Below are positions 16,404 through 63,403 of a DNA stretch of 64,000 nt, piece after piece (position 1 is the first letter of the stretch; each line of letters begins with the position of its first letter). The notes below the pieces were generated by a model. The model was not told the DNA's origin. It saw only the letters and a program-made list of their open reading frames with translations, and searched no databases. Position numbers and translations under genes: made by a program. This DNA comes from Protula sp. h YS-2021 (lineage: Eukaryota; Annelida; Polychaeta; Sabellida; Serpulidae): the NCBI GenBank assembly GCA_949752745.1, contig OX457029.1, positions 15,935,956-15,999,955 on the forward strand. The letters run 5' to 3'.

Positions 16404-16714
16404 TGTCCGTCCGTCCGTCCGTCCGTCCCCTCTTCAAGCTAAGGACTTTGTGGACACCACTTCTATATCAACGAAGCATAATTCAGCTTTCATATTTCAT
16501 ATAGGCAACATATAGGGTATAAAGATGTGCATCGTCAAGGTTTCAGTTTGATCGAAGCAAAATTGACAAAATGACAGGCTTTTAAAAATCGTCATAAATC
16601 GACATATATGCAAACGGAGTGGACTTCAAGGAAGGGTGTCCAGCTTAGATATTGCATAGGGGTAATATTTAGGGTTTCACGGGGGATATTGCTGCTCTCT
16701 GACAGCATCTAGTT
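16404..16714 (+). mobile_element. Helentron-like family A element, partial (3' part)
   Basis: It begins inside a (CCGT)n tract after the 108-bp array, with no 5' head, then one core copy. It ends with GTTTCACGGGGGAT, a TGCTG/CAGCA hairpin and CTAGTT at 16,709-16,714. The next base starts a second family A element. The missing head suggests recombination at the CCGT microsatellite. The Helentron-like label rests on architecture alone; no transposase is present. Confidence 0.6.
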
Positions 16715-17723
16715 ATCCCCCGTGAAACGGAGGGATATAGGTTTGAGATTGTCCGTCCGTCTGTCCGTCCGTCCGTCCGTCCGTCCCCTCTTCAAGCTAA
16801 GGACTTTGTGGACACCACTTCTATATCAACGAAGCATAATTCAGCTTTCATATTTCATACAGGCAAAATATAGGGTATAAAGATGTGCAACGTCAAGGTT
16901 TCAGTTTGATCGAAGCAAAATTGACAAATTGACAGGCTTTTGAAAATCGTCGAAAATAGACATATGTGCACATGTATAGGACTTTGTGGACACCACTTCT
17001 ATATCAACGAAGCATAATTCAGCTTTCATATTTCATACAGGCAAAATATAGGGTATAAAGATGTGCAACGTCAAGGTTTCAGTTTGATCGAAGCAAAATT
17101 GACAAATTGACAGGCTTTTGAAAATCGTCGAAAATAGACATATGTGCACATGTATAGGACTTTGTGGACACCACTTCTATATCAACGAAGCATAATTCAG
17201 CTTTCATATTTCATATAGGCAACATATAGGGTATAACGATGTGCAACGTTGAGGTTTCAGTTTGATCGAAGCAAAATTGACAAATTGACAGGCTTTTGAG
17301 AATCGTCGAAAATAGACATATGTGCACATGTATAGGACTTTGTGGACACCACTTCTATATCAACGAAGCATAATTCAGCTTTCATATTTCATGTAGGCAA
17401 CATATAGGGTATAAAGATGTGCAACGTCAAGGTTTCAGTTTGATCGAAGCAAAATTGACAAAATGACAGGCTTTTAAAAATCGTCATAAATCGACATATA
17501 TGCAAACGGAGTGGACTTCGTGGATTAGATTAGATTACGTAAGATTAATAAAAAATAGATTCGGGTTATATCTGTTCAAAGACAGTTTGTAGTATTGTTG
17601 ATTTGTCGTTCAAGGAAGGGTGTCCAGTTTCCTGTCAATGGTAATCCATTAGCTTAGATATTGCATAGGGGTAATATTTAGAGTTTCACGGGGGATATTG
17701 CTGCTCTCTGACAGCATCTAGTT
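16715..17723 (+). mobile_element. Helentron-like family A element, complete
   Basis: The 5' end is ATCCCCCGTGAAAC, the reverse complement of the subterminal GTTTCACGGGGGAT near the 3' end (about 17,681). A head (GGAGGGATATAGGTTTGAG) is followed by a (CCGT)n tract, then about four tandem core copies of about 179 bp (start points near 16,798, 16,977, 17,156 and 17,334). The 3' end has a TGCTG/CAGCA hairpin and CTAGTT. This order of 5' inverted motif, microsatellite, tandem core, 3' inverted motif, hairpin and short tail matches what is known of pearl elements and non-autonomous Helentrons. It has no coding capacity. Confidence 0.65.
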
Positions 17724-17835
17724 CTTTCTGTTGTGCAGCAGATACGTTCCCGTACACTTCCCATTCCGATCAATTGTCGCCAGAGCAGTTGTCGGGATAC
17801 CGATACTGTCTGCGATGTCCCTAGGCATTCTTTTC

Positions 17836-19074
17836 AGACCAGCCGACTTCGTCGAGCTGAACTTACCACATCAGTGGGGTATCCGTCGTCTGTATGTACG
17901 TGTGTACGCATGCACATACAGCATGTAAACTTTCGCTTAAAATGCTTCGTTTCCCTCAGTTTTGATCAGATTCCTTTAAAATTCTGCGCGAATGCTCTCT
18001 AGACAAGTGTCTCTTTTTTTTTTTTTTTTTGCCGGTCCGCGAAAAATTGGACAAATGGGGACTATTTAAAATTTTTTGGTTGCCAATTTCAAAGTGCTTC
18101 TCCTACAATTTTGATCTCATTGTCTTCAAATTGTGCACAAATGTTTACTAGGAAAATGTCTTTTGAAAAATCACTTTCACGGATTTCTCTAGAGGGCATT
18201 TTAAAATTTTCAAAATGCTTCAAATCCCTGAATTTAGATCGCATTCCTTTCAAATTGTGTACAAATGTTTAGTGGATAGGTCTCTCTTGAAAATTTTTGG
18301 CGATCCAGCAAGAATTGCCCATGTAGGGTGCATTTTTAAAAATTTTTGGTAGCCATTTTTCCAAAATTTGTTAAATTGGGTGCATTTAAGAAAAATTGGT
18401 AGACAATTTTCAAAATACTTCCTCTTAGACAGATTTGATCGGATTCTTTAGGATTTTGAAAGATTGTTCACTAGGTGGTTCTGTCTTAAAAATTTAGTTT
18501 AATGTTTTTATAGCCAATTTTTCATATTTTTTCTTCCACAGTTTTGATCGGATTGCCTTCGAATTTTGCATGAATGTTCACTAGGGTGTCCTTTCTTAAA
18601 AATTGCTTTTTTGGCAGTCCACCAAAAATTGGCTAAACGGGGGGAATGTAAAAAATTGCTTTTCCTCTCACAATAATTGTGATCAGATTATCTTTAAAAT
18701 TTCCTATGAATGTGTGGCAAAAATTTGCCAAATATTCAGCATATGAAAAAATTTTGGCAGCCAATTTTCCAAAGGTTGTTCTTCCACATTTTGATCGGAT
18801 TGGCATCATACTTTCAAAAATGTACACCAGGCGGTCCTCTTTTGAAAAGTTACTTTTTTGGAATTGGCCAAAAAAATTGGCTAAAAGAGGGGGGATTTAA
18901 AAAAAAAAGTAGCAGATTTTCAAAATGTTTTGACTGGATTCCTTTAAATTTGTGTACGAATTATCAATAACCGGTTTTTAAAATATGAATGCTTCTTTTG
19001 GCGACCATGCAAGCCTATTGATACTTGATCCACCAGATCTTGCCTGGTTACAATGTCCCTGGACATTCTTGTTT
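17836..19074 (+). mobile_element. Helentron-like family C element (copy 1)
   Basis: The 5' head AGACCAGCCGACTTCGTCGA is followed by a TGTACGTGTGTACG-type microsatellite. Then come about eight degenerate copies of a core of about 150 bp with recognisable GGATTCCTTTAAATT and GCGATCCGCAAAAATTGG-type phrases. The 3' end is AATGTCCCTGGACATT (a hairpin) followed by CTTGTTT. The 112 bp just before it (17,724-17,835) end in ATGTCCCTAGGCATTC, which looks like another family C tail, so elements may be stacked head to tail. Confidence 0.65.
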
Positions 19075-19500
19075 AGCTTTTTTAACGTTTGATTGTTTTT
19101 AACAGAGTGGGATATGTCACCAATTCGTATTTTTCGTGATAAATAAGGGTTTTGAAAAATACCTCATTTTAAATTGACCTTGAACGTCAAGGTAAAACAA
19201 ATGTACAGATTTCACGACGTCTCATCATCGTCTCTCTTTGTGCCATGTTTCATCTTAGTAGGTCAAATAGCCCATGATGAGTCTTCTGGAACCCACCCGA
19301 GGTGAAAAAAAGGGAAATAAACTTCTGGAATATCTAGCAAAGCGTACCCGTTTGTAAATATTTTTGCAAGGGGGAATAATAAACTAGAATAGGCGGAGAA
19401 TAGAAACACATGATATGTTGTTGTGAACATTATGCAAGACCTTAGGCTGACCGAAATTGTAGATTGTGTTTGTTTTTTCGGGATAGGTGTTTTGCCGGTT
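19075..19500. other. No gene recognised
   Basis: AT-rich sequence with no supported ORF, RNA or repeat. Confidence 0.4.
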
Positions 19501-19509
19501 CGACGATTA

Positions 19510-20085: not shown

Positions 20086-20186
20086 AGTCACGGTTGCACC
20101 TCACCCCCTCCCACCTCCACCCCCCTCTACTTACTTTTAAAGCCTGTTTCCCGACACAACATAGTTTCTGTATTGGAAAGAGATAT

Positions 20187-20990
20187 CCATATCATGGTAT
20201 TAACTGCGACATGAAAGAGATACTGATATCATGGTATTAACTGCGACATGAAAGAGATACTCATATCATGGTATTAACTGCGACATGAAAAAGATACTCA
20301 TATCATGGTATTAACTGTGACATGAAAGAGATACTCATATCATGGTATTACTGTGACATGAAAAAGATACTCATATTTTGGTATTAACTGTGACATGAAA
20401 GAGATACTCATATCATGGTATTACTGTGACATAAAAGAGATACTCATATCATGGTATTAACTGCGACATGAAAAAGATACTCATATCATGGTATTAACTG
20501 TGACATGAAAGAGATACTCATATCATGGTATTACTGTGACATGAAAGAGATACTGATATCATGGTATTAACTGTGACATGAAAGAGATACTCATATCATG
20601 GTATTAACTGTGACATGAAAGAGATACTCATATCATGGTATTAACTGTGACATGAAAGAGATACTCATATCATGGCATTACTGTGACATGAAAGAGATAC
20701 TCATATCATGGTATTAACTGTGACATGAAAGAGATACTGTTATCATGGTATTACTGTGACATGAAAGAGATCCTCATATCATGGTATTACTGTGACATGA
20801 AAGAGATACTCATATCATGGTATTTACTGTGACATGAAAGAGATACTCATATCATGGTATTAACTGTGACATGAAAGAGATACTCATATCATGGTATTAA
20901 CTGTGACATGAAAGAGATACTCATATCATGGCATTACTGTGACATGAAAGAGATACTCATATCATGGTATTAACTGTGACATGAAAGAGC
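20187..20990. repeat. Minisatellite, 35-37-bp unit, about 22 copies
   Basis: Units read GACATGAAAGAGATACTCAT followed by ATCATGGTATTAACTGT. A 35-bp form lacks two A residues before CTGT. The two length forms are interspersed. Confidence 0.95.
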
Positions 20991-22642: not shown

Positions 22643-22649
22643 CTTGTTG

Positions 22650-23640: not shown

Positions 23641-23642
23641 TT

Positions 23643-24062: not shown

Positions 24063-24640
24063 ATTAAAGGTCAACGCCACGGTGATACAAACTGAATTCT
24101 GAATGCTACCGAAGCGTGGTAGCTGCGGTTGCGTATTACGTAGGTGTGGTGTTACTCACAGACACGTACTTCGTAGTTTGCTACTCAAAAGGCAATGCTA
24201 TGAGAAGATTGAAAAAACTTTGACGATGGACATAGTGTTTGGACGTGTTTTAGACAATACTTAAACCTTTGGTTTAAGTTACCGTCCCGACCGGAGTCCC
24301 CGTCAGGTTGGGCTGTAACAAATCGTTTGGTACTATTCACAGTATCACAGTCGGATCGTACCTTAATTTTAAACCGACTCATTGCCGTTTCCGTTTGGGG
24401 GCTGTGCTCTCGATGATAGTTTGTTATGATCCAATTAATAGAAACAAACCTATACTATTTATCCACTCCCCATCCCTCCCCCCCCCCCCCCCCCCGCTCC
24501 TTTTCTTCCTCTGTAACGAGGCATAATGTTGACCTTTCTTCATGTGTTTGGAAAAAATAATCTTTTGAGAACAGTTGTCACGTCACTCCGTGCCTATCCG
24601 CATCCCCTCCAGTACTTGAACAAGAAGTACTGTGTGACAC
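24063..24640. other. No gene recognised; poly-C tract at about 24,479
   Basis: A C run lies at 24,479-24,495. No supported gene. Confidence 0.4.
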
Positions 24641-25140
24641 GGACAGGTGTGGATGAGTGCAGATCGCGATTTTCAGTCAGCAGCCTGTGACAAGGATAGG
24701 TCTGGGTGAGTGCAGATCGCGATTTGCAGCCAGTACCCTGTGACAAGGACAGGTCTAGGTGGGTGCAGATCGCGATTTTCAGTCAGTACCCTGTGACACG
24801 GACAGGTCTGAGTGGGTGCAGATCGTGATTTGCAGTGATTACCCTGTGACACGGACAGGTCTGAGTGGGTGCAGATCGTGATTTGCAGTGATTACCCTGT
24901 GACAAGGACAGGTCTAGGTGGGTGCAGATCGCGATTTTCAGTCAGTACCCTGTGACACGGACAGGTCTGAGTGGGTGCAGATCGTGATTTGCAGTGATTA
25001 CCCTGTGACAAGGACAGGTCTGGGTGGGTGCAGATCGCGATTTTCAGTCAGTACCCTGTGACAAGGACAGGTCTAGGTGGGTGCAGATCGTGATTTGCAG
25101 TCAGTACCCTGTGACACGGACAGGTCTAGGTGGGTGCAGA
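24641..25140. repeat. Minisatellite, 53-bp unit, about nine copies
   Basis: Units read GGACAGGTCTRGGTGGGTGC, AGATCGYGATTTKCAGTSA, then GTACCCTGTGACAMG. Two alternating subtypes (GCGATTTTCAGTCAG and GTGATTTGCAGTGAT) are present. Confidence 0.95.
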
Positions 25141-25144
25141 TGAG

Positions 25145-26150: not shown

Positions 26151-26157
26151 TCAATTA

Positions 26158-27098: not shown

Positions 27099-27730
27099 AT
27101 CCCCCTTGTAAGCGAGGGATGTGGTTATGAGCGTATCGGTCTGTCTGTCTGTCCGCTGGTGCCCCTCATGGTTTTGTCCACGCAAGTTCTCAAAAACTGT
27201 TTAAGGTGCGGTTCTGATTTTTTATACAGTGAAAATTTATATCTTGTTCAAGGTCGTATTATTTTTGAAATCGGTGGAAAAGTGACAAAAGGAGAACTTG
27301 TCAAAATTGCCAGAAATTGCGTTGAACTTAGCTATTGTGCAATATTTATCCGCGCCATTTCGCATATAACCATTTCTCGTAGTGACCTTTAAGCTTGTAT
27401 AGTGAAAATATATATATATTGCACATGTACATCGTCGTATTAGTTTTGGTGAAATCGATGAAAAATTGACAAACTGGTAACTTGTCTCTCTTGGTGTTAG
27501 CTGGAAAGTGATCATGCTAGACCAGCAAGAACAGAGGTTACTCTGTTGTGGTATTAGTTGTCTAAAGTTTCAGTTAAAATGTCCAGGCTAAAGTGAATGG
27601 GGCATTCGGGACCGAGACAACTCGTCCATTATAGAGGGTGTTCACTACTGGGAGGTGTACAGCAGTGGAGGTGTTACTTTATATAATTTTCCTTACACGG
27701 GGGATCCTGTCTCACTGAGACTGTCGTTTT
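27099..27730 (+). mobile_element. Helentron-like family D element (copy 1)
   Basis: The 5' head ATCCCCCTTGTAAGCGAGGG includes a motif (ATCCCCCTTGTAA) nearly complementary to the subterminal TTACACGGGGGAT at about 27,694. A (GTCT)n/GTCC tract follows, then two cores with phrases such as GTCAAAATTGCCAGAAATTG and CATATAACCATTTCTCGTAG. The 3' end has a GTCTCA/TGAGAC hairpin and then TGTCGTTTT. It has no coding capacity. Confidence 0.6.
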
Positions 27731-29896: not shown

Positions 29897-29974
29897 TGCT
29901 TAATCTTTGCGACCACTTCTTGTGTATGGGACAGAACTGAATAAAAAGAAGCGGCTAACAGGGTGTTGTTCGAG

Positions 29975-30800
29975 TCAGCGAGCATCGGCGCGTGGTTGCT
30001 GTGGTTGTTCGGGTGAACGAGCATCGGCGCGTGGTTGTTGTGGTTGTTCGGGTGAATGAGCATCGGCGCGTGGTTGCTGTGGTTGTTCGGGTGAATGAGC
30101 ATCGGCGCGTGGTTGCTGTGGTTGTTCTGGTGAACGAGCATCGGCGCGTGGTTGTTGTGGTTGTTCGGGTGAACGAGCATCGGCGCGTGGTTGTTGTGGT
30201 TGTTCGGGTGAACGAGCATCGGCACGTGGTTGCTGCGGTTGTTCGGGCGAGCGAGCATGGGCGCGTGGTTGCTGTGGTTGTTCGGGTGAGCGAGCATCGG
30301 CGCGTGGTTGCTGTGGTTGTTCTGGTGAATAAGCATCGGCGCGTGGTTGCTGTGGTTGTTCGGGTGAGCGAGCATGGGCGCGTTGTTGCTGTGGTCGTTC
30401 GGGTGAGCGAGCATCGGCGCGTGGTTGCTGTGGTTGTTCTGGTGAATGAGCATCGGCACGTGGTTGCTGTGGTTGTTCGGGTGAGCGAGCATGGGCGCGT
30501 GGTTGCTGTGGTTGTTCGAGTGAGCGAGCATGGGCGCGTGGTTGCTGTGGTTGTTCGGGTGAGCGAGCATCGGCACGTGGTTGCTGTGGTTGTTCGGGTG
30601 AGCGAGCATCGGCGCGTGGTTGCTGTGGTTGTTCGGGTGAACGAGCATCGGCGCGTGGTTGTTGTGGTTGTTCGGGTGAACGAGCATCGGCACGTGGTTG
30701 CTGTGGTTGTTCGGGTGAGCGAGCATGGGCGCGTGGTTGCTGTGGTTGTTCGGGTGAACGAGCATCGGCGCGTGGTTGTTCGGGTGAGCGAGCACCCACG
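29975..30800. repeat. Minisatellite, 39-bp unit, about 21 copies
   Basis: On the plus strand each unit reads GGTTGYTGTGGTTGTTCGGG then TGARCGAGCATCGGCGCGT. One copy near the right end lacks about 15 bases (30,767-30,795). Variation is mostly single-base. Confidence 0.95.
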
Positions 30801-30959: not shown

Positions 30960-31370
30960 TCCTAAGTGTTGTTTTGTGAAAAACACAGGCGCATACCTCA
31001 TTCACAGCCTTCAGCTTAAACATTACAAGGATCGTTTTCCCATGACCTATTCCTTCACGGCACTTCGCTTCATGCGTTAGGATATTGGTTTACTTTAAGT
31101 AATTTTTTTTAGACTCTTGATTTGAAATGAGTTTGTCCAAATAATTAAGAGTAAATGAAGCAGTCGTGAGGAGAAACGGCACCCGGCAATGCGATTTAAC
31201 GATCTTACTTCGTTTTAAAGAAACATATATTTCTGTCATTTACTGCAAGTGTCATTGCGCCTGTGGGACTAAAACACTGAACCCCACACCCACCCCATTC
31301 CCCCCCCCCCCCCAAATGCACACACGCGCACAAAGTAATTACACTTGGGGATTTGTACTGCGCATCGATG
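30960..31370. other. No gene recognised; poly-C tract at about 31,301
   Basis: Includes a C run at about 31,301-31,312. No coding segment is supported. Confidence 0.4.
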
Positions 31371-31374
31371 CAAG

Positions 31375-33525
31375 TTAAATAAACATGCGCATTGGTCCGA
31401 AATGTGAACCGCGCATCGACGGAAGATAAATAAAGATGCGAACTGGTCCAAAATAAGCACCGCGCATCAACGCAAGCTAAATAAACATGCGCACTGGTCC
31501 GAAAAAAGAACCGCGCATCAACGCAACCCAAAGAAACATGCGCACTGGTCCAAAATGAGAACCACGCATCAACACAAGTTAAATAAACATGGGCAATGGC
31601 CTGAAATGCGAACCGCGCATCGACGGAAGTTAAATAAACATGCGATCCGGTCCAAAATAAGCACCGCACATCAACGCAAGTTAAGCAAACATGCGCAGTG
31701 GTCCGAAGAAAGAACCATGAATCGACGCAAGTTGAATAGACATAAGAGTAGGGCATCGACGGGACTTAAATAAACCTGCGTTCTGGTCCGAAATGCAAAT
31801 TGTGCGTCAACGCAAGTTAAATGAACCTGCTCACTGGTCCCAAAATGCGAACCGCGCATCAACGCAACCTGAAGAAACAGGTATACTAGTCCAAAATGCG
31901 AACCGGATATCAACGCAAATTAATAAACATGCACACTGGTCCCAATTGCGAGCCACACGTCAGCGCAAGTTAAATAAACATTTGCACTGGTCCAAAATAA
32001 GTACCGAGCATCAACACAAGTTAAATAAATATGCGCAATGGTAAAAAATGCGAACCACGCATCAACACAAGTTAAAAAACATGCGCACTGGTCCGAAATG
32101 CGAACCGCACATCAACACAAGCTAAATAAGCAAGTACACTGGACCAAAATAAGCACCGTGCATCAACGCAAGTTAAAAAAACATGAGCACTGGTTCGAAA
32201 TGCGAATTACCCATTAACGCAACTTAAATAACATGCGCACTATTCAAAATAAGAACTGCGCATCAACGCAGCTTAAATAAACATGCGCACTGGTCCAGAA
32301 TAAGAACCGCGCATCAACTCAAGTTAAAGAAATATGCGCATTGGCCTGAAATAAGAACCGCGCATCGTTAAATAAACATGGGCAGTGGTTCGAAATGCGA
32401 ACCACGCGACAACGCAAGTTAAATAAACATTTGCACTGGTCCAAAATAAGCACCGCGCATCAACGCAAGTTAAATAAACATGCGCAGTGGTTCGAAATGC
32501 GGACCACGCTCCAACGCAAGTTAAATTAACATTTGCACTGGTCCAAAATGCAAACCACGCATCAACACAAGTTAAATAAACATGCGCACTGGTTCGAAAT
32601 TCGAACCGCGCATTAACGCAAGTTAAATAAACATGCGTAATGGTCCGAAATTCGAACTGCTCATCAACGCAAGTTGAATAAACATGCACACTGGTCCAAA
32701 ATGCAAACCGCGCACCAACGCAAGTTAACATATTCGCAGGTCCGAAATAAGCACCGGGCATCAACGCAAGTTAAATAAACATGCAAACTGGTCCGAAGTG
32801 CGAACCGCGCATCAAGGCAACCTAAGGAAACTTGGGCACTTGTCCAAAATAAGTACCGCTCATCAACGCAAGTAAAATAAACATGCGCATTGGTCTGGAA
32901 TAAGAACCGCACATCAACACAAGGTAAATAAACATGCACACTGATCCGAAATAAGAACCGCCCATCAACACAAAGTTAATAAACATGCGCGTTGATCCGA
33001 AATAAGAACCGCACACCAACACAAGATAAATATACATGCGCACTGATCCGAAATAAGAACCGCGCATCAACACAAGGTAAAAACATGGGCGCTGGTCCGA
33101 AATGCGAACCGCACATCAACGCAAGTTAAATAAACATGGGCACTGTTCCAAAATGGGAGCCGCGCATCTACGCAAAATTAAAGAAACATGCGCACTTGTC
33201 TGAATAAGAACCGCGCATCAAGGCAAGTTACATAAATATGCGCACTGGTCCGAAATGCGAGCGTTGTTTGAAGGTATCTATGGCAGACTATCCAGTCTAC
33301 CAGAGATACAAACAAATCTGTTTCCCATTTTTCTGGGAAAGAAATCTTTGTATGCATTTATCGGTCTATGTTGTGGTCCGGTGCTAAATTAAATATTGAG
33401 CTAGCTCTTTGCCGTCTCATCTTTTGAAGCCCAATTTTTCAGGGAAATTCCCTTGCTCATGCACGCTGGAATTGGTCTTATTGCTTTTCGTAAGCTGGGA
33501 CTTTGTCCTTGGACAAACTTGTTTT
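31375..33525 (+). mobile_element. Family H element: 51-bp array plus shared tail (copy 1)
   Basis: About 37 copies of a 51-bp unit (ATGCGCACTGGTCCGAAATG, CGAACCGCGCATCAACGCA, AGTTAAATAAAC) run to about 33,262. A non-repetitive tail of about 260 bp follows, also found after the second array at 42,540-42,829. The tail ends with a TTTGTCC/GGACAAA hairpin and CTTGTTTT. Because 51 is divisible by 3, open frames with a 17-residue period (AHVYLTCVDARFAFRTS) appear on the minus strand, but frequent stops and frame slips break them. They are treated as repeat by-products. Confidence 0.7.
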
Positions 33526-34027
33526 AACCATGACCTCAGAGAACTTCGATGACCTTGCTCTCCTCGGCCATGGTCAAAGTTTAAAACCCGGAAGTGGGCC
33601 ATTATCTCGAAAACTGTTAGAGATAGAGCGATTTTGAGCTTAATTTTGGACCCTATACACCTAAAAGGCGAATTGCAACAGTTACCTCGGTGACCTTGAC
33701 CTCCTCGGCCATGGTCAAAGTCAGAAACCTGAAGTTGACTATTATCTCGAAAACGGCTAGAGATAGATCGATTTTGAGCTTATTGTCGATCCTTTGGGAA
33801 TGAAAGATCATGTGTAAGAGATACCTCGGTGATCTTAACCTCCTCGGCCATGGTCAAACCAAAAACCGGACGTTGACCATTATCTTGAAAACGGTTAGAG
33901 GTAGAGCGATTTTGAGTTTAATTTTGGTCCTAAAAGACACAATGTAAGAGGTGAAGAGTTCATAATCGTATTTTTTGTGACCTCTAAGTGTAATTTTCGC
34001 TACTCGGTAGCGAAAAAGGTCTAGTTT
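33526..34027 (+). mobile_element. Family G element (copy 1)
   Basis: Three core copies of about 130 bp share CTCCTCGGCCATGGTCAAA and TAGAGCGATTTTGAGYTTA. The 3' end is a strong hairpin with arms TTTTCGCTAC and GTAGCGAAAA, then AGGT and CTAGTTTTT. It directly abuts the end of family H copy 1. A diverged relative is at 46,042-46,480. Confidence 0.5.
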
Positions 34028-34043
34028 TTACGTTGTGTTTATT

Positions 34044-34650
34044 ATGTCTCCCCGACCAATCGGAGACATATAGTGTTTGTACGTTCTGTGTGTGTGTATG
34101 TGTGTGTGTGTGTCAGTCTGTTGTGAACAAAGTGTCTGCAAGACATCTCGAGAACGAAACGTCGGATCGACTTCAAACTTGATCGATTTATTCCTTGGTT
34201 AGGTCGGACGGTTCTATCAACTTTTGGCGCATGTCACGTGATTAGGGCAGGTGGGTGACGTCATTACGTAAAAATCTTGTCTGCGAAATTTCTCTGCCGC
34301 TGAACATCGGAGAAACTTGAAACTTGGTGGGATTGTTGCTTGGTTGGTCCGAAAGACTCTGTAGAATTTTTTCGGGAGTAGAACGGACGATTTCGGCGTA
34401 TGACGTCATCACGTAAAATATGTATATATTATAAACAAGATCTCGTGTGCAAAATATCTCGATAACGGGTCCTATCGACTTCAAATTTTATATGGATATT
34501 CCTTGGGTCAGTCGGACGGTTCTTTCAGCGTTTCACTCATGTCACGTGATTAGGGCAAGTGTATTACGTCATCACGTAAAAATCTTGCGTCATTTCTACT
34601 TAAAACTTTATATGGATATTCCTTGGTTCAGTCAGACGAGTGTTTCAATT
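34044..34650 (+). mobile_element. Family F element with ATGTCTCC hairpin head
   Basis: The 5' palindromic head has arms TATGTCTCC and GGAGACATA and is followed by a (TG)n microsatellite at 34,087-34,114. Degenerate cores follow, with CATCTCGAGAACGAAACGTC-, GACTTCAAACTT- and GACGTCATYACGTAAA-type phrases. No clear 3' end is seen. The right side runs into a transposase-like fragment. Confidence 0.45.
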
Positions 34651-36450: not shown

Positions 36451-37367
36451 AGCCCAGCTTACGTTATGCATAAGCTGGGGTTTTCCTATCGGTCTGCAGA
36501 CGGCGTCCGTTGGTTAGTTGGTTGGTTAGGCAGTTAGTTAATTAGTTAGTTAGTTGTTTGTTTAGTAAACTTTTGTTCAAAATGTATCTCCTCCTACAGT
36601 TCTAATTCTATGTCATTTATTTTTTATGTGAGGCATCCTTAGGAGGTCATGCATATGGCTTGTGCTTTTCTAGCCGATCGGGTAATTTTTGGCAAATTTT
36701 TGAAGAAAAATTTTTAAAATGTATCTCCTACATTTTTTAACCGATGTCGTTCATTTTTGGTATGAAACACCCCTAAGGGGTCGTACATACGGCTTGTGCT
36801 TTTTTAATCGATCGAACATTTTTTTATATTTTTGGTGAATTCTTGAAGAACAATTTTCATAAATAATTGCATCTCCTCTTACATTTATGAACCGATGTCG
36901 TTTATTTTCGGTCTGAGGTTTCCCTAAGGGATCATGCGTATGGCTTGTGCTTTTCTAGTCGATCATTTTTTTTTTAATTTGGGGGGAATTTTTGAAGAAA
37001 AAATCTCCACGTGCATTTTTGATCCAATGTCGTTCATTTTTGGCATGAAGCACCCCTAAGGGGTCCTACATATCATTCGTGTTTTTTAGCCAATCGGATA
37101 ATTTTTGTATTTTGGGAGAATTTTTGAAAAAAGAACTTGCATTTTCACCAACAGTTTTATCCGATTTCGTTTGTTTTTGGTAGAGGCATCCTAGGTGGGT
37201 CATGCATACGACTTGTGCTTTTTGTGTTTTGGGGGGGGGGGAAGGGGAATTTTTGAAAAAAAAAAACAAACTTCAAAATGCATTTCCCCCTACTGTTTTT
37301 ATTCGATTTCATTTTATTTTTGGCATGAGGCCTCCTGGGTGGGTCTTGCATACGACTTGTGCTTTTT
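36451..37367 (+). mobile_element. Family B element, left part (interrupted by family C)
   Basis: The palindromic head has arms CCCAGCTTA and TAAGCTGGG, followed by a (GTTAGTTA)-like microsatellite near 36,515-36,560. Tandem cores of about 140 bp follow, with phrases CATACGGCTTGTGCTTTT and GAATTTTTGAAGAAAA. The array resumes at 40,770 with the same phrase order, so the intervening 3.4 kb is an insertion. Confidence 0.6.
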
Positions 37368-40300: not shown

Positions 40301-40769
40301 TCTCAAGCTAGACCTGTCTTGAAAAATTGCTCTTTTTGGCGATCCGCCAAAAATTGGCCAAATGGGGGACATTTGTAATTTTGTGGTTGCCAATTTTCAA
40401 AATGCTTCTTATCCCACAATTAGATTTTCTTCAAATTTTTCACGAATACTCCCTAGGTAGGCCTCTTTTGAAAAATTACTCATTTTGGCGTTCCGAAAAA
40501 AATTGACCAAATGGGGGACATTTTTTAATTTTTTTGTGTCTAATTTTCAAGTTGCTTCTTCTCCCACAATTTTGAGTATGGCCGCTCACTTTAATTTGGT
40601 ACGCTGTGATGACAACTACACCGAGCAAGTGAGCGAATATTTTCTCCATTCAGTTACGGCTTTTTTTCGTAACCGCTGTCTGCCAATTTGATCATGATTT
40701 TGTCTGTGATTCTTGGATATATATTCTGTAGGTCACGGCTGGTCACCATGTCCCTGGACATGCTTGTTT
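37368..40769 (+). mobile_element. Helentron-like family C element (copy 2), 3.4 kb
   Basis: The 5' palindromic head has arms GACCAGCCGA and TCGGGCTGGTC, followed by a GTAC-rich microsatellite and about twenty core units of about 155 bp. Two core subtypes mostly alternate, giving a dimeric repeat of about 310 bp. Subtype 1 has ATTTTTTGGTGTCAAATTTT and GATCGGATTCC; subtype 2 has TTTGTGGTTGCCAATTTTC and GATCAGATTTTC. The 3' end is CATGTCCCTGGACATG then CTTGTTT. Both ends are intact and sit within a family B array. Confidence 0.75.
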
Positions 40770-41182
40770 ATTGATCGGACTATTTTTGTATTTTTGGGGG
40801 AGTTTTTGAAGGAAAACTTGAAAATGCATTCCCCCTACAATTTTATCCGATTTCATTTATTTTTGGTGTGAGGCATTCCTAGATGGGTCGATCATACAGC
40901 TTGTGGTTTTTGACTCAATTTGGAAATGTTTAATTTTTGGTCGAATTTTTGAAGACAATTCTACAAAATGCATCTTCTCCTACAGTTTTGATCCGATATT
41001 ATTTATTTTAGATGTGTGGTATGCTTTAGGCGTTCGTGAATACGGCTTGTGCTTTTTGAGTTGATCAGGGAATTTTTGAAGAACCAGACTCAAGATGCAT
41101 TTCGTCCTACAATTTTATCAGATGCCATTTATTTTTGGTATGAGCCGTCTGTAGGGGGTCATGCATACTTCTTGTGCACTTT
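40770..41182 (+). mobile_element. Family B element, right part
   Basis: It resumes the family B core (TTGATCGGACTATTTTTGTA, GAATTTTTGAAGA) and ends where the second 51-bp array begins, at about 41,185. Confidence 0.6.
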
Positions 41183-41184
41183 GT

Positions 41185-42954: not shown

Positions 42955-44225
42955 GGATTCGCCAAATGGGGGGCATCTGAAATTTTGCGGTTAAGAATTT
43001 TCAAAATGTTTCTTCTCCAACACTTTTGATTGCATTTTCTTTAATCTATGAACGACTGTTCTCTAGATAAGCCTGTCTTGAAAAATTACTTTGTTTTAGC
43101 GATCCGGCAAAAATTGGCCGAATGGGGCATTTTTTTTTATCTTTTGGCGTCTAATTTTCAAAATGCTTCTCTCTCAATTTTGATTGGATTCCTTTCCAAT
43201 TTTGAACAATTGTTCTCAAAGTAGGCCTTTCTTAAAAAGTTACTGTTTTGGCGATTCGCCAAAAATTGGCTAAATGGGGGGGGGGGGCATTTAATTTTTT
43301 TGGGAAATTTTCAAAACACTTCTTCGTACACAATTTTGATCATATTTCCTTTAAATTTTGTTCAAATATTCTTAACTTAGGCTTCTCTTGAAAAGTTACT
43401 TTTTTGGCGATCCGCTAAAAATTGGCCAAACGGGGGCATTTTTTAATTTATTGGCTTCCAATTTTCAGAATGTTTCTTTTCGCACAATTTGCTTTCCCAT
43501 AATTTGGACTTCTTTCCAATTTAGTTCGATTGTTCTCTAGTTAGGCTTCACTTGAAAAATTACTTTTTTTGGCGATCGGCCAAATATTGGTTAAATTTTG
43601 AGGCAGTTTTTAATTTACTGATAGCCAATTTACAAAACACTTTATCTCGCACAATTTAGATTGGATTCTTTTCCAATTTTGTAAGATTGTTATCTCAATG
43701 TTTCCTTCTTGAACAATAACTTTTTTGGGCGATCCGCCAAACTATTTCATGAATATTTACCAGGCTTTCTTCTCTTGAAAAGCTAGTTTTGGGCGATCCA
43801 AAAGAAAATTGGTTAAAAAGGGGATATTTAAAAATTTTTGGGGAAGCCGATTTTAAAACTGCTTCTACTCCCCCGATCTGAATCGTATTCTTTCCAAATA
43901 TTGTACGGATGTTTACTGGGTAGGCCCCTCTTGAAAATGTTAGGCGATCCACCAAAATTGGCCAAAGAGATGACATTTTAAAATTTTTGGTGGCCAATTC
44001 TCCAAAGTTTTTTTCCCCAACAATTTTTGATGGGATTCTCTTCAAATTGTATAATTGTTCTCTAGACGGTCCGCTTTTGAAAAGTTACTTGTTGGCTATT
44101 CACGAAAACTTAGCTAAATGGGGGCATTTAAAAAAAATTAGTGGTCCAGTTTTCAAGATGCTTCTCCCACAATTTTGGATCGTTCGTTCAACTTTTGAAC
44201 GAGGGGTTTTTGTCGATCGGGTAAA
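42955..44225 (+). mobile_element. Family C core relics without ends
   Basis: About eight degenerate cores (GCGATCCGCCAAAAATTGGC, CACAATTTTGATC) lacking the AGACCAGCC head and the CTTGTTT end. Confidence 0.6.
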
Positions 44226-44237
44226 AGATTGGTTAAT

Positions 44238-45562
44238 TTACCCCCGCATAAACGTGCGATATAGTTATGAGAGTGTCCGTATTTGTGAAGTCAGTGAAAA
44301 ATAGAGAAAATGACAAATTGTCAAAAATTATCAAAAATTGCGTTAGACTTAGCAATTTTGTGATATTTTGTCCGCACCACTTCACATAAAACCATTTGTC
44401 ATAGTGGAATCCAGGACAAAACGTCCCCGGTCATAAGGTCGGCGGCCAAAAAGTACTCGGTCATAATACCCCTGCCATAAGGTCCCCAAATGAAGTTAGG
44501 GCAAAAAACACCCCCAAACAAAAACGTATGATAACCTATATTAATGCTTTATTCAGCTTTACATTGGCCATAAGGACCCCAAGTGAATTAAGGGCCAAAA
44601 CATCCCCAAAGTTAAATATATACATATGATAACCTAAAGTAATGCTTTATTCAGCTTCACCCCGGCTCTTAGGTATCTGGTTATAATGCCACCGGCCATG
44701 AAGTCCCCAAATGAATTTAGGACCAAAAACGTCCCCAAAGTAAAATATGTCGTTTAGTCTAGGACAAAATATCCGGCCATAAGGTCCCCGGACATAAAGT
44801 ACCAGATTATAATGCCCCCGGTCATAAGATCCCCAAATGAATTTCTTACAAAGACGTCTTCAAAATAAAAGAAACATATGATGACCCAAATTAACGTTTT
44901 ATTAAGCTTTACCCCGGCCCTATGGTTCCAAAATAGATTTGTGGCCAAAAGCTTCCAAAGCAAAATAATGTATGATAACCTAAATTAACGCTTTATTAAA
45001 CTTTACACCGGCAATAATGTTTTCTCTCATAAGGTCCCCAAATGAATTTAGGGCCAAAATCTCCAAAGCAAACTTTGTCGTATTGGAATCCAGGACAAAA
45101 CCTCTCCGGCCATAAAGTTCCCGGCCATAAGGTACCCAAATGAATTAAGTTCCAAAATGTCTCCGAAGCACAAAAACCTATGATAACCATATTAACGCTT
45201 TGTTGGGCTTTGCGTTATTTTTTTTACATGCGTTCAAGGCAAAATTCACTAGAAAAAACTGTCAAAAATTGCCAAAAACTACGTTTGACTTAGAAACTGT
45301 GCGATGTTTTGTTATGCACTTCGCATATAACCATTTGTCGTGCGAAAGTGCAACCTTACAGTGAATATATATATATATATTGTAGTTGTGCACCGTCGTA
45401 TTATTTTTGAAATCGGTGAAAAAGTGATTGTGGGAATTTGGGACCGAGATAAGTCGTACATTATAGAAGGTGTTCACTATTGGGAGGTTTTCAGTAATGG
45501 ATGTTTTACTGCATATAATTTGCTTTACACGGGGGATCCTGTCTCACTGAAACTCTAATTTT
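44238..45562 (+). mobile_element. Family D element (copy 2) split by another repeat
   Basis: The head-like GATATAGTTATGAG at 44,258 and the end (CACGGGGGATCCTGTCTCAC then CTAATTTT at about 45,562) match family D. D-type cores (GTCAAAAATTGCCAAAAAC, CATATAACCATTTGTCGT) occur only near each end; the centre is the 44,400-45,190 repeat. Confidence 0.5.
44400..45190 (+). repeat. Repeat with phrases like CCGGCCATAAGGTCCCC, inserted in family D
   Basis: The units repeat CCATAAGGTCCCC, CAAATGAATTTAGGGCCAAA and GATAACCTAAATTAACGC about five times with variable spacing. GGAATCCAGGACAAAAC occurs at the left edge (about 44,405) and again near 45,084. Built of short reiterated phrases, it resembles the foldback elements at 54.1 and 58.2 kb in style but not in sequence. 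No clear inverted ends were found. Confidence 0.55.
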
Positions 45563-46041
45563 CCAAAACATTTTTCTTCTGATCCAAAAGAAAGTTGGCT
45601 AAATGGGGGGAGCATTTTAAAATTTTTTTGGAGCCAATTCTCAAAATGTCTGTCTTGGTTTTTTTTTTTTTTTTTTTTTTTTGGCGATTCACCAAAAATT
45701 AGCCATATAGGAGGCATTTTTTACTTTGTTGGTATCCAAAGGGTTTTTCCCGACAATTTTGATCGGATTCTCTTCAAATTTTGCATAAATGTTCATCAGG
45801 TGGTCCTCTCTTGAAAAGTTACTTTTTCGCCAAAAGTAGGCTAAATGGGGAGCATTTAAAAAATATTTAGCAGCTAATTTTCAAAATGTTTATTTTCCCA
45901 CAATTGTGACTGGATTCGTTTATAAATTTTACGAATTTTCTATAACCGGGTTTAACAATATGACAACCACTTTTTGGCGACCTATTGACGCCGATTTAAT
46001 AAATCTCGGCTGGTCATAATGTCCTTTGACAATGTTGTTTA
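45563..46041 (+). mobile_element. Family C element (copy 4), 3' part
   Basis: Degenerate cores end with ATCTCGGCTGGTCATAATGT and GTTGTTTA. The head is missing. A T run lies at about 45,660-45,682. Confidence 0.55.
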
Positions 46042-51540: not shown

Positions 51541-52290
51541 TTCGTGTTTTACCTGCAAGCTTTTCACGAAGGTTTTAAGTCTCCCCCTCCGCGACACACC
51601 TCCCGTGTGGCATGACCCTCTCTACAGTGGACTTTATAAGAACAAAAAAAAAAACAATGGACGAGTCGGAATCACTACGCAGGCAGTAATGAAGCGTGTT
51701 CGTTACAATAATATCGTGACAACAAACGCCCGTGAAAACCACCACCGACACCAACTCGACACCTGTCAACGCAGTCAATATCCGCGCTAACCAAAACAAA
51801 TACGGTTCAATTAAAATCGCTTTCTTTTCCAAATTTACTTTCATTGTTAGTGACAGACGGAAGCCCACCCCCCACCCACCCCTCCCCGGCAAACCTGCTA
51901 ACAAGCGCATTCTCTTCAGCTTTTCCACTACGGAAGTAAGTTTGTGACATGGAGTGGCAAACAACTGCGGGATACCTCAGGGACTAGGGACATACTTGAA
52001 GCCCAGCTTCTGAACCAACACAACACTGTCATTAAAGACTTAACCATTACGTAAACTTTACGAGGACTTCGGTACAGAAACACTACACACCACTTTCAAA
52101 AATCTCGTTGTGTCCCCTTACTTGTCTTCTGTTACAGTTCATGTGCTGACCTCATATCAAAAGGTCAGATCTATGAGACGAATCCATATATTCAACAGCA
52201 CGAGGTTCAAGCGATGGCTCGACAATTTCCGCAGCGCTCTTCTAAGATTAGCGCCGGGGTGATTCAAGGAAATGCTTTCCCGGGGAAATA
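51541..52290. other. No gene recognised
   Basis: No supported gene. The left edge of the next minisatellite lies at about 52,290. Confidence 0.4.
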
Positions 52291-52294
52291 CAGC

Positions 52295-53130
52295 CGTGAC
52301 TTGTCTGGAACGCCATCAAATCCCGGACAATCACAGACGTGACGTGTCTGGAGCGCCATCAAATCCCCGACAATCACAGCCGTGACGTGTCTGGAGCGCC
52401 ATCAAATCCCAGACAATCACGGACGTGACGTGTCTGGAGCGCCATCAAATCCCAGACAATCACAGACGTGACGTGTCTGGAGCGCCATCAAATCCCGGAC
52501 AATCACAGACGTGACGTGTCTGGAGCGCCATCAAATCCCAGACAATCACAGCCGTGACGTGTCTGGAGCGCCATCAAATCCCAGACAATCACAGACGTGA
52601 CGTGTCTGGAGCGCCATCAAATCCCAGACAATCACAGACAATCACAGACGTGACGTGTCTGGAGCGCCATCAAATCCCAGACAATCACAGACGTGACGTG
52701 TCTGGAGCGCCATCAAATCCTAGACAATCACAGACGTGACGTGTCTGGAACGCCATCAAATCCCGGACAATCACAGACGTGACGTGTCTGGAGCGCCATC
52801 AAATCCCGGACAATCACAGACGTGACCTGGCTGGAGCGCCATCAAATCCCGGACAATCACAGACGTGACGTGTCTGGAGCGCCATCAAATCCCGGACAAT
52901 CACAGACGTGACGTGTCTGGAGCGCCATCAAATCCCGGACAATCACAGACGTGACGTGTCTGGAGCGCCATCAAATCCCAGACAATCACAGCCGTGACGT
53001 GTCTGGAGCGCCATCAAATCCCGGACAATCACAGACGTGACGTGTCTGGAGCGCCATCAAATCCCGGACAATCACAGCCGTGACGTGTCTGGAACGCCAT
53101 CAAATCCCGGACAATCACAGCCGTCACGTG
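52295..53130. repeat. Minisatellite, 43-bp unit, about 19 copies
   Basis: Units read ACGTGTCTGGAGCGCCATCA, AATCCCRGACAATCACAG and MCGTG. One copy near 52,630 has an 11-bp internal duplication (ACAATCACAG twice). Copies are almost identical. Confidence 0.95.
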
Positions 53131-53384
53131 TCCACAGGCAATATATTCACAGTATTTCACATAATGATGTGTCTACGCATGATAACTATATACACATACA
53201 ACGTCACTCCGTTCACCGGAGCACTCTGGCTACGACTCAAGGATCCCCGTTTTCCTTCAGTATATTCCTTGCCCACAAGATGCCAATGACAAATGAAAGC
53301 ATAAATCTTAAACCACACGCTCTTATAGAAAATACCCTCAACATTTAGCCTGCTCGGTGTTCAGGAAGCTGATTAGCAGGTGAG

Positions 53385-54875: not shown

Positions 54876-54880
54876 AAGCG

Positions 54881-55814: not shown

Positions 55815-55917
55815 TTATTCGTCATCGGTTTCCTCGTCGCTCGAGGCGTGGTCCGAGCGACCCTGCTGCTGCTGCTGCTGTGTTTTGGCTTGCACCATGT
55901 GCGAGAATCGCCTGTAC
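55815..55917 (-). CDS. ZRANB1 last coding exon: poly-Gln and acidic tail
   Basis: Acceptor GATTGTTTCAG, entry phase 2 (AG+G makes Arg), 34 codons to TAA at 55,817-55,815. It encodes YRRFSHMVQAKT, six Gln (CAG)n, then SSDEETDDE and stop. This matches the YRQIR...acidic end of Trabid, with an added Gln run that may vary in length between alleles. Confidence 0.9.
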
Positions 55918-58900
55918 CTGAAACAATCAATTGGATCAAAAATGAACTACGCTGGCAACAATGTGAGTAAAATAACTAGAACAGTGGCTGTTTAGGTGTC
56001 AAGTTTGTTGTATAACTATAACGAAAACGCCCTCACAGTATTAGTATTGTAATAGGCCATGGTCGATCGAAGTTCACGGGGCGATGAAAGAGGATTATTG
56101 TTAAATATCGGAAAATAAACATTTAATATTGTGGACAATGGTACTGTGATCTTCGACCTAAGCAAACATGTTGCATCTTTACTCGAACTTAAGAAAATAC
56201 TTACATTTTGGCAAACTACGCCTATGATTCCTTTAGCAGTTGCAGAGGCTGTGTGGCCGCTGCCATATTGCCAGCCATTTTGTACTTGATATTACGGTGT
56301 ACAAGATGGCCGTAGTTGACTCATAACACCGTCATGTCAAATACAAGATAGCTGACAATATGCAGCGGCCACACTGAAAACATACAATATGGCGATCGTT
56401 AATGACCTCATAGCCCGAGAACTACCTTTGCATAATTAAATCGTATATTCATACTCTCACAACATAACGCCTTGTTTTTTGGCCAAACATTTGCTTGGTT
56501 GTAACTACTTTTCTTCCGCGGTACATAATTAACAGCAAGTTTTTCGGCACGAGTGTTAACAGGGTTAATTTGAAAACAAACTGACAAAAATCAGTATTTT
56601 AATTCGCATCATTTTTCAAAAAATCTGTTCGATGCTGCCACATATACTTCTATGATTTTAGGTGTTTACTCAGCCCATTTCGTCATTTCTCCACGAAGCA
56701 CACGGCAAATATGCACGACGGTGCTCCATCACTGTCAGCATTAATCAAACCTGCAGTCTCACCCTCGTCCATCTGCTTGACGAGGAGGGTACGCTGTGGG
56801 ATGTTCTGTTGGGCGACCAACAGACCGCCGCCCGTCATGCAGCACGCCCCTCCCCAACCACCTGCCCTGCTCCACCCCACCCACCTTTCGAGCCACTCGT
56901 CCATCATCTGCTTGACGAGGAGGGGGCGTTGTGGGATCTTCTGCTGGGCGACCAACAGACCGCCGTCCGTCACGCAGCACTCGAGCCAGTCCCGCAGGAT
57001 CGTCTCCTCTCTGCCCAACTGAGAAACACACGTACACAATAAGTCAGTGTTTGTTAGTGTATATTTGGGTAAACTAGAACCTCAGTAAGCCAGGATCCCC
57101 CGTGAAGCAGTAAAAGTAAAATGAGGTCAAGTCACGCCGCAAGGTTTCACGTTCCTACGACAATCCCTTCTATGAGAAGTCGGTCCGACAAAAACATCCT
57201 CTCACGGCTAAGTTCAAGCCAAAAATTCACCATACTTGACAATTTCCCATGACGTCAATTTTCCGCTGATTTTGACAATAATGCCACGTCGCACATCTTC
57301 AATATATATATTTTCACCACGCAAGGTTTCAGATTCCTACGACAATTCCTTCTATGAAAAGTCGGCCGGACAAAACTTAGTACTTTTTGTGGATAGACAG
57401 ACGGACGGACGCAGGGACCAGCTCATAACTATATCCCTCCGTAAGGGATATCTCAAAAGCGATGGGGGGGGGGGGGGACACTTGCTACCTCATTTTTTTT
57501 TTACTCATTGATCATATTTCATTTATTTGATTTAATTGTTAAGTTTTGATCATTAAAACTGCTAACATTTGTGCCAGCCATCTGACAGACATTTTCTTTC
57601 GAACGCTCTTGAATCTGCCATTTTCTGTTGTATTGTTGTAAGGGTGTTTTTTGACGGGCTTACCTCTCCGGGCGGCAGGAAGTGGATGGGCAGTAGCTTG
57701 CCCTCGCAGTCCGTGAGTGGCAGGTAGGCAATCTGCTCGTCGTCCGCGCCATCTAGGTGCGCACCGGCCCCCATACACCCACCCACGTCCACCTCCATGG
57801 GCACGAGGGCGGAGAAGTGACCGCGCGTGTAGCCCAGCGAGATGGGCGTCTTGAAGCAGAAGCTCTGCTCCCACAGCAGCGGCAGATACACTCCTTTTAC
57901 GTGAGAAATAACATACAGATAAGCGTGTGATTTAGGGCTAGTCCGGAAAAAGACCTTCATGGCTGAAGCAAGACCCTTTGCCCCCAGGCATCCCCCTCGT
58001 CGCCTTTGTCTAACAAACTACACGCTATTTTCACCAAAACATCGTGTTACTTCTTTTTGTTTTTACAGCACACGGGTTTATTTTTCATTTTATAATACAC
58101 TGAGGTATTTTTAAGGCGTCAGCGTTGTGAACTTAGCTTTTGCATAATTAAAATTGCCTAAAATTACATGTATTTTACGTCAGCGTTGTGAACTTAACTT
58201 TTGCATAATTAAAATGGTCTCTGGACAACTCGGCACCTGTCAAACTCGGCACCTACAAAGTCGGCACTTTTTGGATAACTCGGCACCTAAAATTTTGGAC
58301 AACTCGGCACCTCATTTTCAGACTCGGCACTTTTGTTTTTTTTTATTATTTTTAATTTTTTTTTATTTTTACAGGCTTAATGCTTCAACAACAGTTTATT
58401 TTTTATTAAAGTGGCTCATTTTTATACTTTTTCTTTTTAGATTTATTCCTTATGGCTTGAGTTTATTCCTTAAGTGTTTCATCTCACAATTCCAGAGCAC
58501 TCTGGACACCACAATTCATTGCAATCACCATGAAAAGGGGCCGTTTGTGTACTCTGAAACCTTTTATGTATTTATGATTATTTTGTTCCCTGTGATTTTG
58601 CGCTCAAAGAGCCTTTCATTTGACATCACTCACTATTGCTGAGAACTCTGGACACCACAATTAACTTCAATCGCTAGAGCAAAGAGCCTTTCATGTCAGG
58701 GTACTCTGAAACCTCTTATGTATTTATTATTGTTTTGTTCCCTGTTATTTTGCAACCATAGGTTGGATTGCACTTGCTAATTGCAGTTGTTGTGATCAAT
58801 TTTTCGGAGTATCATAAATTGCAATTAGTACCACAGAGCGGAAGCAGGGAGCACTGTATTACTTTAATAGCAATTATGAAACAATGCCTATGCGAATTGC

Positions 58901-61690: not shown

Positions 61691-61989
61691 TTCATTCTGG
61701 ACTGCAAATTCTAGCTTGTCTTCATTCCGCCAACGACATCATGCTGAATAAGACGCAAGTGCCTTAGCCACTTTCATTTTGTTTGTGGCGTACTATCCAC
61801 ACCGCGATATTGTGGAAAAGCACAGTGAAAAAGCATAACTGAACTAGGTCTTATTATTTATTCCAACCGGCTTTAGCCAGTCTACCATGAAAATATAACA
61901 TTGATATTTTAAAGTCAAGTCGTGACCGCAGTGTTTGCGATAACACGGGACGAAAAATTTTTCAGTGCTTTTTTCTTATAAAATTATTA

Positions 61990-62355
61990 CAGGGTTCGAA
62001 ATTAGCGGTGGCGCGGTGGCGATTTGCTACTAAGTTTTGACATTTCGCAACCAGAAAAAAATCTTGGTGGCGGAATTTTGCCACCAGCAAATCTGAGGAA
62101 AACATAGTTCACAAATTTAAACAATTTTCTTTTCATAAATAACATTATTAATTGGCAAATGGGCGGCGGCCTGTCAAGTGGATTAGATTAATACCGGTTT
62201 ATTGATAATAAACAGTGGAGCGCTTATTTGACTTGTTGTTTTCATGTTGTTGCCAGTTGGTCACTTGGGACACGGGTTAACTCAATTTCGCCACCAGAAC
62301 AAGAAGTTGGTGGCGATTTTCGCCACCATGTCAAAGGGCTTAAGTCCGAACCCTG
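61990..62355. mobile_element. Small inverted-repeat element, hAT-like ends
   Basis: CAGGGTTCG at 61,990 and its inverse CGAACCCTG at 62,347-62,355 bound 366 bp rich in GGTGGCG / CGCCACC phrases in both orientations. The CAGGG termini resemble hAT MITEs, but no flush 8-bp target duplication is visible. Confidence 0.5.
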
Positions 62356-62537
62356 TATTGGGTTTATATTTTGCAACCACGGCTGCGGTTTCACTTACAA
62401 TGAATTTCCGGGAAAGTGGTCATTAAAAACGAAAGTAAAACTGCAATACAGTTTATTGTTAATAAAGCATGCTGGGTGTCAATCAAATGTAAAGGAATTT
62501 GTTAGTTAAATTTGACGAAGGAAATGAATTGAAGAAA

Positions 62538-63403
62538 TAACAAGAATGTACAGGGACATTGTGACCAGCCGAGATGTTGTGAATCACGTATCAATAGGAA
62601 CGTATGGTCGCCAAAAACTGGTACCAGTAGTCAAAAACCCTGTTGTTGAAAATTCCCATAAAATTTTAAAGCAATTCGGTCAAAACTGTGAAAGACTTTT
62701 TCAAAAGAGGACGGCCGATGCAAAACTGGAAGGTAATCCGATCAAAATTATGGAAGAAGAAGCATTTTGAAAACTGGCAACCAAAAACGTATAAATGCTA
62801 CCCCCCCCCCCCCCCCTCCATTTGGCAAATTTTTGGCCGATCGCTCAAAAGTGCCCTTTTCAAGAGAGGACCACCCGGAGAACATTATGAAACATTTGAA
62901 GGCAACCCGATCCAAATTGAGGAAGAAAAAGCTCTTTGAAAATTGGCCACCGAAAAATGCCCCCCCCCCCCCCCCCACCTTCGCTAATTTTTGTTGGCTC
63001 GCCAAAAAGTAACTTTCATGAGATGAAAGACTAGTGAATATTTATGTAAAAATTGAAGACAGTTCGATCAAAATTGTGATAGAAGAAGCATTTTCTTCCT
63101 CAATTCCTAGCAAACATTTATCCAGATTTTTAAGACAATGCAATCAAAATTGGGAGAAGCATTTTGAAGATTCGCAACCAAAAAAAAAAAAAAGAAGCTA
63201 AATGGCCCCCATTTAGCCAATTTTGGACGTATTGCCAAAAAAATCTTTCAAGAGAGGATTTGAAAGGATTCCGGTCAAAATTATGACAGAAGAAACATTT
63301 TAAGTAAATTTTTACATACGTACACGCGTACATACTGTACATACAGTTGATGGATACCCTTCTACTGATGTGATAAGACCAGCCCTACGAACTCGGCTGG
63401 TCT
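62538..63403 (-). mobile_element. Helentron-like family C element (copy 3), reverse orientation
   Basis: On the minus strand it starts AGACCAGCCGAGTTCGTAGG then GCTGGTCTTATC, a GTAC microsatellite, and four to five degenerate cores (with poly-G runs opposite 62,800 and 62,958). It ends CTCGGCTGGTCACAATGTCC then CTTGTTA. Both ends are intact, which confirms the boundaries deduced from the other copies. Confidence 0.7.

Follow-up and report, generated by a model that had tools for sequence, protein, structure and literature searches.

The DNA analysed here, hereafter the window, is a stretch of 64,000 nt from contig OX457029.1 (C6; positions 15935956–15999955) of Protula sp. h YS-2021, and it contains copies of five families of array-carrying repeat elements, called A, C, D, G and H. 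The analyses described below make it very likely that these families are satellite-carrying non-autonomous Helentrons (HINEs), that family A was derived from a coding Helentron, and that the grammar shared by the element ends reflects one mechanism at work in several lineages. The copies and element ends recognised in the window were as follows (subTIR, subterminal inverted repeat).

16390 (start approximate) to 16712, plus strand: A copy 1, 5'-truncated; GTCC microsatellite, one unit, 3' subTIR, hairpin and CTAG end.
16714 to 17721, plus strand: complete second copy of A, whose TATCCCCCGTGAAACGGAGGGATATAG 5' end sits in the TT just past copy 1; a GTCC microsatellite is followed by an array of four 178-bp units, and the copy closes with hairpin and CTAG.
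17836 to 19071, plus strand: C copy with a AGACCAGCCGA 5' subTIR and inverted repeat; a GTAC-type microsatellite precedes diverged units of 155 bp, and the copy closes with the TGTCCCTGGACA hairpin and CTTG.
27099 to 27726, plus strand: D copy missing from the initial annotation of the window; intact palindrome GTCTCACTGAGAC (27709–27721), with GTCG at the CTAG position.
31357 to 33521, plus strand: H copy truncated on its 5' side, with the 51-bp array, the right end and the TTGTCCTTGGACAA hairpin followed by CTTG.
33546 to 34024, plus strand: G copy; 138-bp array, TTTTCGCTACTCGGTAGCGAAAA hairpin and CTAG.
34043 to 34073, plus strand: 5' end of another element resembling a HINE, with subTIR, inverted repeat and GT microsatellite.
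36451 to 42821, plus strand: complete H copy, split by the C element at 37368–40766; the CCCAGCTTACG 5' subTIR and inverted repeat are followed by a GTTA microsatellite, the 151-bp and then the 51-bp array, the right end, and the hairpin with CTTG.
37368 to 40766, plus strand: C copy nested in H; 155/311-bp array, TGTCCCTGGACA hairpin and CTTG.
42957 to 46038, plus strand: C copy without a recognised 5' end, interrupted by D at 44239–45558; 3' end decayed.
44239 to 45558, plus strand: D copy inside the C array; its 5' end is uncertain, and at the 3' end both the hairpin and CTAG (here CTAA) have decayed.
57074 to 57450, minus strand: D copy ending in CTAG, where genome-wide matches stop; 5' end degenerate, with no TT before it.
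62541 to 63403, minus strand: short C copy with both ends present.

The ends listed in the initial annotation were present. These were CTAG at 16709–16712 and 17718–17721 for A, CTTG at 19068 and 40763 for C and at 33518 and 42818 for H, CTAG at 34021 for G, and minus-strand ends near 62541 (C) and 57074 (D); the C end near 46038 was decayed and the D end at 45555 read CTAA. Hairpins with a stem of at least 6 that were followed by CTWRTT occurred nine times in the window, compared to a mean of 3.1 in 60 shuffles (standard deviation 1.9, largest 8). Four of the nine were the CTTGTTT ends of C and H, one was the G end, and four belonged to no assigned family. After a hairpin, CTTGTTT was found five times in the window, compared to an average of 0.61 for permutations of its letters; CTAGTT, with two occurrences versus 0.99, was not special. 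A palindrome preceding the 3' end, as expected of HINEs, was identified in A, C, G and H and in one of the three D copies in the window, the hairpin of the other two being decayed. In terms of folding energy the hairpins of A, C and H are short and ordinary (z −1.3, −0.6 and −0.95, respectively), the two D copies that were folded had no such hairpin (z 0.4 and −0.6), and the G hairpin is strong (z −4.9).

A 5' motif complementary to the stretch just before the hairpin had been described for A, C and D. This motif, together with the adjacent inverted repeat that accompanies a HINE 5' subTIR, was clear in A and C and also in H (36453–36479). In D it was found only weakly, as a complementary stretch of 5–7 bases (ATCCCCC at 27099, ACCCCC and ATCCC in the other two copies). 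No 5' end was identified for G, and no H-type 5' end was found within the window for the H copy at 31357–33521. A strict automatic search for paired ends returned two pairs in the window, one of A and one of C, versus 0.32 expected by chance (largest 2), and a single pair versus 0.15 (largest 2) when restricted to stems of at least 6. The further HINE-like 5' end just past the G end (34043–34110) has the form ATGTCTCCCCGA..GGAGACAT followed by the GT microsatellite; a 3' end for this element was looked for and not found.

The boundaries of the families were examined in the genome (863 Mb, 218 contigs). First-look candidates numbered 764 for A, 2393 for H, 857 for C, 1004 for D and 2106 for G, and the best 40 per family were scored; neither these totals nor the scored sets represent copy numbers or an unbiased sample. 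The right-end sample of A consisted of 28 loci outside the window (such loci are numbered with the prefix L, and L002 is the end of a coding element) and the two window copies. CTAGTT was part of both the A query and the pattern, so its presence is no test, and the test is whether the flank diverges after it. All 30 right flanks were distinct directly after CTAGTT, no pair agreeing at more than 12 of 20 positions. The H, C, D and G queries extended beyond the presumed end, so that the point where a match stops tests the boundary. All 39 non-self matches of H stopped 1–14 nt beyond CTTG (36 of them within 8 nt), 37 of 39 of C stopped within 9 nt of CTTG, 36 of 39 of D stopped within 4 nt of CTAG and the remainder within 16, and 33 of 39 of G stopped within 7 nt of CTAG. 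The C search gave one extra row, a second piece at one of the same places, and the D search gave 31 extra rows, all upstream array pieces. Genome copies of all five families stop at the boundaries originally proposed, and these ends are real.

All 34 matched 5' starts of A or D type were preceded by TT, which was absent from the pattern used to find them, and these starts had 27 distinct left flanks. At L014 an A copy sits inside an H right end, for which the uninterrupted H of the window supplies the empty site, GGTCTTATTGC; the filled site, GGTCTTATT-ATCCCC..CTAG-TTGC, has two T's more. The extra T's fit an element with a T at each end set between two T's, or a TT duplication. For the C element nested in the complete H copy, the joined flanks align over the junction to the 151-bp array of H at 81% over 72 columns. 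Insertion at TT without a longer target-site duplication, another HINE feature, was found for the A and D starts and at both empty sites (A in H, C in H), and the T-rich target anticipated in the initial annotation was TT as tested on A and on C in H. Nesting was observed directly in other combinations also: D lies within a C array, A copy 2 starts in the TT after copy 1, and at L024 an A copy starts in TT following a C/H-type end.

A helicase and endonuclease frame upstream of the A end at L002 led to a whole element of 8.4 kb (L030; G000:C3:13392667–13401102), whose 5' end is at 13392667 and whose 3' end is at 13401102. It carries the A 5' end, a GTCC microsatellite, 178-bp units (four matches) and the A 3' end, and the array lies between the 5' end and the gene. 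Pfam analysis of its frame of 1267 codons identified Helitron_like_N (2e-12), PIF1 (1e-25) and Exo_endo_phos (1e-7). A Rep HUH domain, a PIF1 helicase and a C-terminal AP endonuclease in one frame are expected of a Helentron, and all are represented here, albeit the first by the last quarter only of the Helitron_like_N profile (143–191 of 191). Matches of the protein in the PDB include Helraiser, and the motif EFQQRGSPHIH has the S between G and P that is considered of Helentron type in the available part of PMC4067079. Residues 1–700 were at best 39% identical to any of 521 database matches. No second (RPA) gene was recognised in the element, for which no close search was made. Parts of two more copies, 95–98% identical, were found on C3 and C11.

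In 12 of 13 non-coding A loci compared, 187–605 bp of the 3' 638 bp of L030 were matched at 99.5–100%, and the thirteenth (L008) was 94.7% identical. Within L030 there is a further 5' end at 13393494, flanked by ATGAAATGCATTTGT. It was found again in five of the 28 A loci (L010, L014, L016, L022 and L028; L002–L009 extend too little upstream to judge), and these five loci would therefore derive from the same composite. Because L030 has both A ends and the 178-bp array, we read the A copies as its derivatives, a direction of derivation that we infer. In a separate case, L017, an A copy has two 5' ends 801 bp apart with a common host flank, a tandem duplication including flanking DNA.

These findings bear on the possibility that the families are miniature inverted-repeat transposable elements or foldback elements moved by a cut-and-paste transposase, their complementary motifs being ordinary inverted repeats. 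The 5' and 3' motifs are indeed complementary, and the two extra T's at L014 could be a 2-bp duplication. However, the 3' motif is subterminal and is followed by a hairpin and CTAG or CTTG, and the coding relative of A is a Rep-helicase-endonuclease rather than a transposase of that kind. We consider this explanation highly improbable. The pearl or non-autonomous Helentron architecture recognised in the initial annotation was upheld, as were the common boundaries, the TT target and, for A, a coding Rep-helicase element with matching ends.

The five families had been described as having different bodies. Comparison of their cores and ends suggests that they probably represent fewer lineages. 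A and D have the subTIR CACGGGGGAT in common and their cores are related (z 12.5, 4.7 and 4.0 for three D copies, 1 of 200 shuffles scoring higher in the last case). C and H have in common the hairpin core TGTCCYTGGACA before CTTG and subTIRs with GCTGG, giving a 3' end of the type GCTGG..TGTCCNTGGACA-CTTG, and the 155-bp units of C are related to the 151-bp units of H (z 5.0). The G core stands apart from A (z 0.1) and from the 151-bp unit of H (z 0.4), as originally described, and scored z 2.2 against C. All of these values are relative to single-letter shuffles, which flatter AT-rich pairs. Judged by sequence, there are no fewer than two lineages of ends, A/D and C/H, apart from G. L016 and L024 contain additional C/H-like ends whose subTIRs are different, and L005 contains a weak one.

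A protein search for other Rep loci, in which 37 of 1106 candidates were scored, gave 30 further rows at about 26 places with 38–47% identity, mostly to the helicase or endonuclease part only. In three of these loci (on C6, C2 and C3) the 3' ends were examined; each of them terminates in GCGCGAACCCGGCGGATTC-ATGCTtctcgAGCAT-CTAG, with divergence setting in at TT or no more than 7 nt after it. Together with the end of L030, this indicates that hairpin-CTAG is the end of coding Helentrons in this genome, in two groups. For the second group, a subTIR complement marking the 5' end was sought in all loci examined, including L050 and L070 upstream of one member, and was not found. Ends of C, H, D or G type beside Rep loci were sought by patterns or BLAST in part of L033–L069, L068 and L069 being checked for hairpin ends and second-group motifs only. 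L037 contains a C 5' end, but this has no link to the Rep gene. On C2 and C8 (L038, L039, L060 and L061), two frames of Helentron type, 2339 and 2347 codons long and 99.8–99.9% alike where compared, belong to another element; a stretch downstream of them may be an RPA-like exon, and the Helentron in L060/L061 contains a weak G-like stretch (78% over 41 bp, E 6e-4).

It had been suggested that a single machinery mobilises all of these families, and one trans-acting Helentron protein would account for the end grammar found throughout and for A, C and D being nested in or adjoining one another or H. In contrast, there are at least two lineages of end sequences plus G, the second coding group has its own hairpin-CTAG end at three loci, and a coding relative with matching ends, the expected partner of a HINE, was identified for A only in the Rep regions examined. 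We therefore regard a single protein as an unlikely explanation, and a single machinery was not supported. One mechanism in several lineages is supported by A/D, C/H, G and the one further coding group, the matching of particular proteins to particular families being interpretive.

The initial annotation had proposed that satellites from many sources are mobilised and perhaps also created. By exact matching, which overlooks diverged units, A copies contained 1 to 6 units when counting began at the outermost 5' end identified. In L022, L023, L024 and L026 an insert of approximately 3.5, 3.8, 2.4 and 3.2 kb, respectively, lies within the A microsatellite; it contains both arrays of H, those of 151 and 51 bp, and is bordered by edges rich in CCACATAAG. 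The host flanks of these four loci differ and the A ends are intact (the start of L022 being the internal one), so that the composite was probably moved as a unit. The same 51-bp array lies beside the A microsatellite in L003 and L008, neither of which reaches a 5' end. The presence of the 178-bp array inside the coding element argues for an intrinsic origin of the array in A, and foreign arrays were found as a nested insert in four A copies; the creation of satellites from many sources was not shown. A bolder view is that the array is a functional component of the coding element, that unit number changes during copying, and that the A ends spread their own and foreign arrays as composites, such that the lineage would generate dispersed satellites rather than merely carry them. 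We hold this only tentatively and think it rather doubtful, the route of array expansion being conjectural.

Several observations weigh against the interpretation of the families as HINEs with real and shared ends. The CTWGTTT heptamer alone is at chance level in the window (30 observed, 29.4 expected) and was dropped as a signal. The majority of the terminal hairpins fold no better than shuffles, and the two-end search scarcely exceeds its own chance level, its criteria being too strict beyond A and C. Two of the 39 C matches continue into H sequence, as in the window, and six of the 39 G matches stop 16–21 nt past CTAG. The D 5' end at 57450 is not preceded by TT. The scored copies, as the best 40 per DNA search, are a biased sample. 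The L030 frame lacks most of the Rep N-terminal (Helitron_like_N) domain, which makes its protein no more than a candidate for an active one. A Rep-helicase element with the same ends, which the initial annotation had called for, was found for A; for C, H, D and G, none turned up in a set of 27 Rep matches, the 3' regions of some of which were examined. The heptamer count and the hairpin energies would also be expected if these were unrelated satellites whose ends are alike by chance. That explanation does not accommodate the coincidence of genome-wide boundaries with the proposed ends in all five families, and we give it next to no credence, less than any other.

Based on these findings, we favour the interpretation of the families as satellite-carrying HINEs that use a common mechanism in several lineages. 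The Rep protein of a coding Helentron would recognise the 5' subTIR and inverted repeat, rolling-circle replication, which we infer, would copy the element up to the 3' hairpin and CTAG or CTTG terminator, and the new copy would be inserted between two T's. Family A would consist of derivatives of a coding Helentron that already contained the 178-bp array, and would move whatever its ends enclose, including the nested 2.4–3.8 kb insert with other arrays.

The remainder of the window contains other repeats and a possible gene. Positions 1–14000 are a large tandem of units of approximately 1.53 kb with a duplicated segment of 437–440 bp, roughly 89–98% alike. Smaller tandem arrays lie at 15805–16388 (106-bp unit), 20176–20989 (37 bp), 24626–25141 (53 bp), 29965–30778 (39 bp) and 52290–53132 (43 bp). 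Exon-like stretches on the minus strand at 55820–57960, between which a D element sits, presumably resemble ZRANB1; Pfam found no domain in the frame at 57562–58017 in this region. Pfam searches of five window frames and an Rfam search gave no match.

The elements of the window belong to a known kind. Bivalve pearl elements, reportedly described by Gaffney et al. in 2003, are said to contain short arrays of core repeats of approximately 160 bp. They have since been re-classed as non-autonomous Helentrons (as cited in PMC7492417, in the part available), and the elements described here resemble those named CvA, CvE and CvG in having short arrays in a Helentron-type element, a likeness of description. 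Satellite-carrying HINEs (Cg_HINE) are abundant in the Pacific oyster Crassostrea gigas according to the accessible sections of a 2020 study (PMC7492417). As far as those sections describe them, Cg_HINEs share with the families here a 5' subTIR, an adjacent inverted repeat and a microsatellite (GTCY/GTCC in several), followed by a satellite-like array in fixed orientation (consensus units of 138–181 bp), a 3' subTIR, a palindrome and T-rich targets, and two of them, like H, each carry two arrays. The arrays of H differ in having units of 151 and 51 bp, the genome is a different one, and the likeness is one of architecture. In those sections of PMC7492417, the Cg_HINEs could not be connected with any of ten coding Helentrons of the oyster, whereas family A was matched to a coding Helentron. 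A limited literature search, which included the available parts of PMC11136912, PMC12628747 and PMC10294476, found no report of a coding partner for HINEs in molluscs.

For HINE/DINE-1 elements, the non-autonomous copies are described, in the portion of PMC4067079 available, as having arisen by deletion from a Rep/helicase/endonuclease element whose ends they share. They too insert at TT, and some copies carry microsatellites or tandem repeats; unlike the partners described there, the coding element of A itself contains the 178-bp satellite array. The set of satellite-carrying non-autonomous Helentrons in the window is thus well bounded and of a known kind, and what is new is the coding relative of A with the same array and the occurrence of several lineages under one grammar. 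One end grammar need not mean one enzyme. Since both ends, near-identical internal sequence and the array itself connect family A with a coding element, the source and the expansion of that array become testable.

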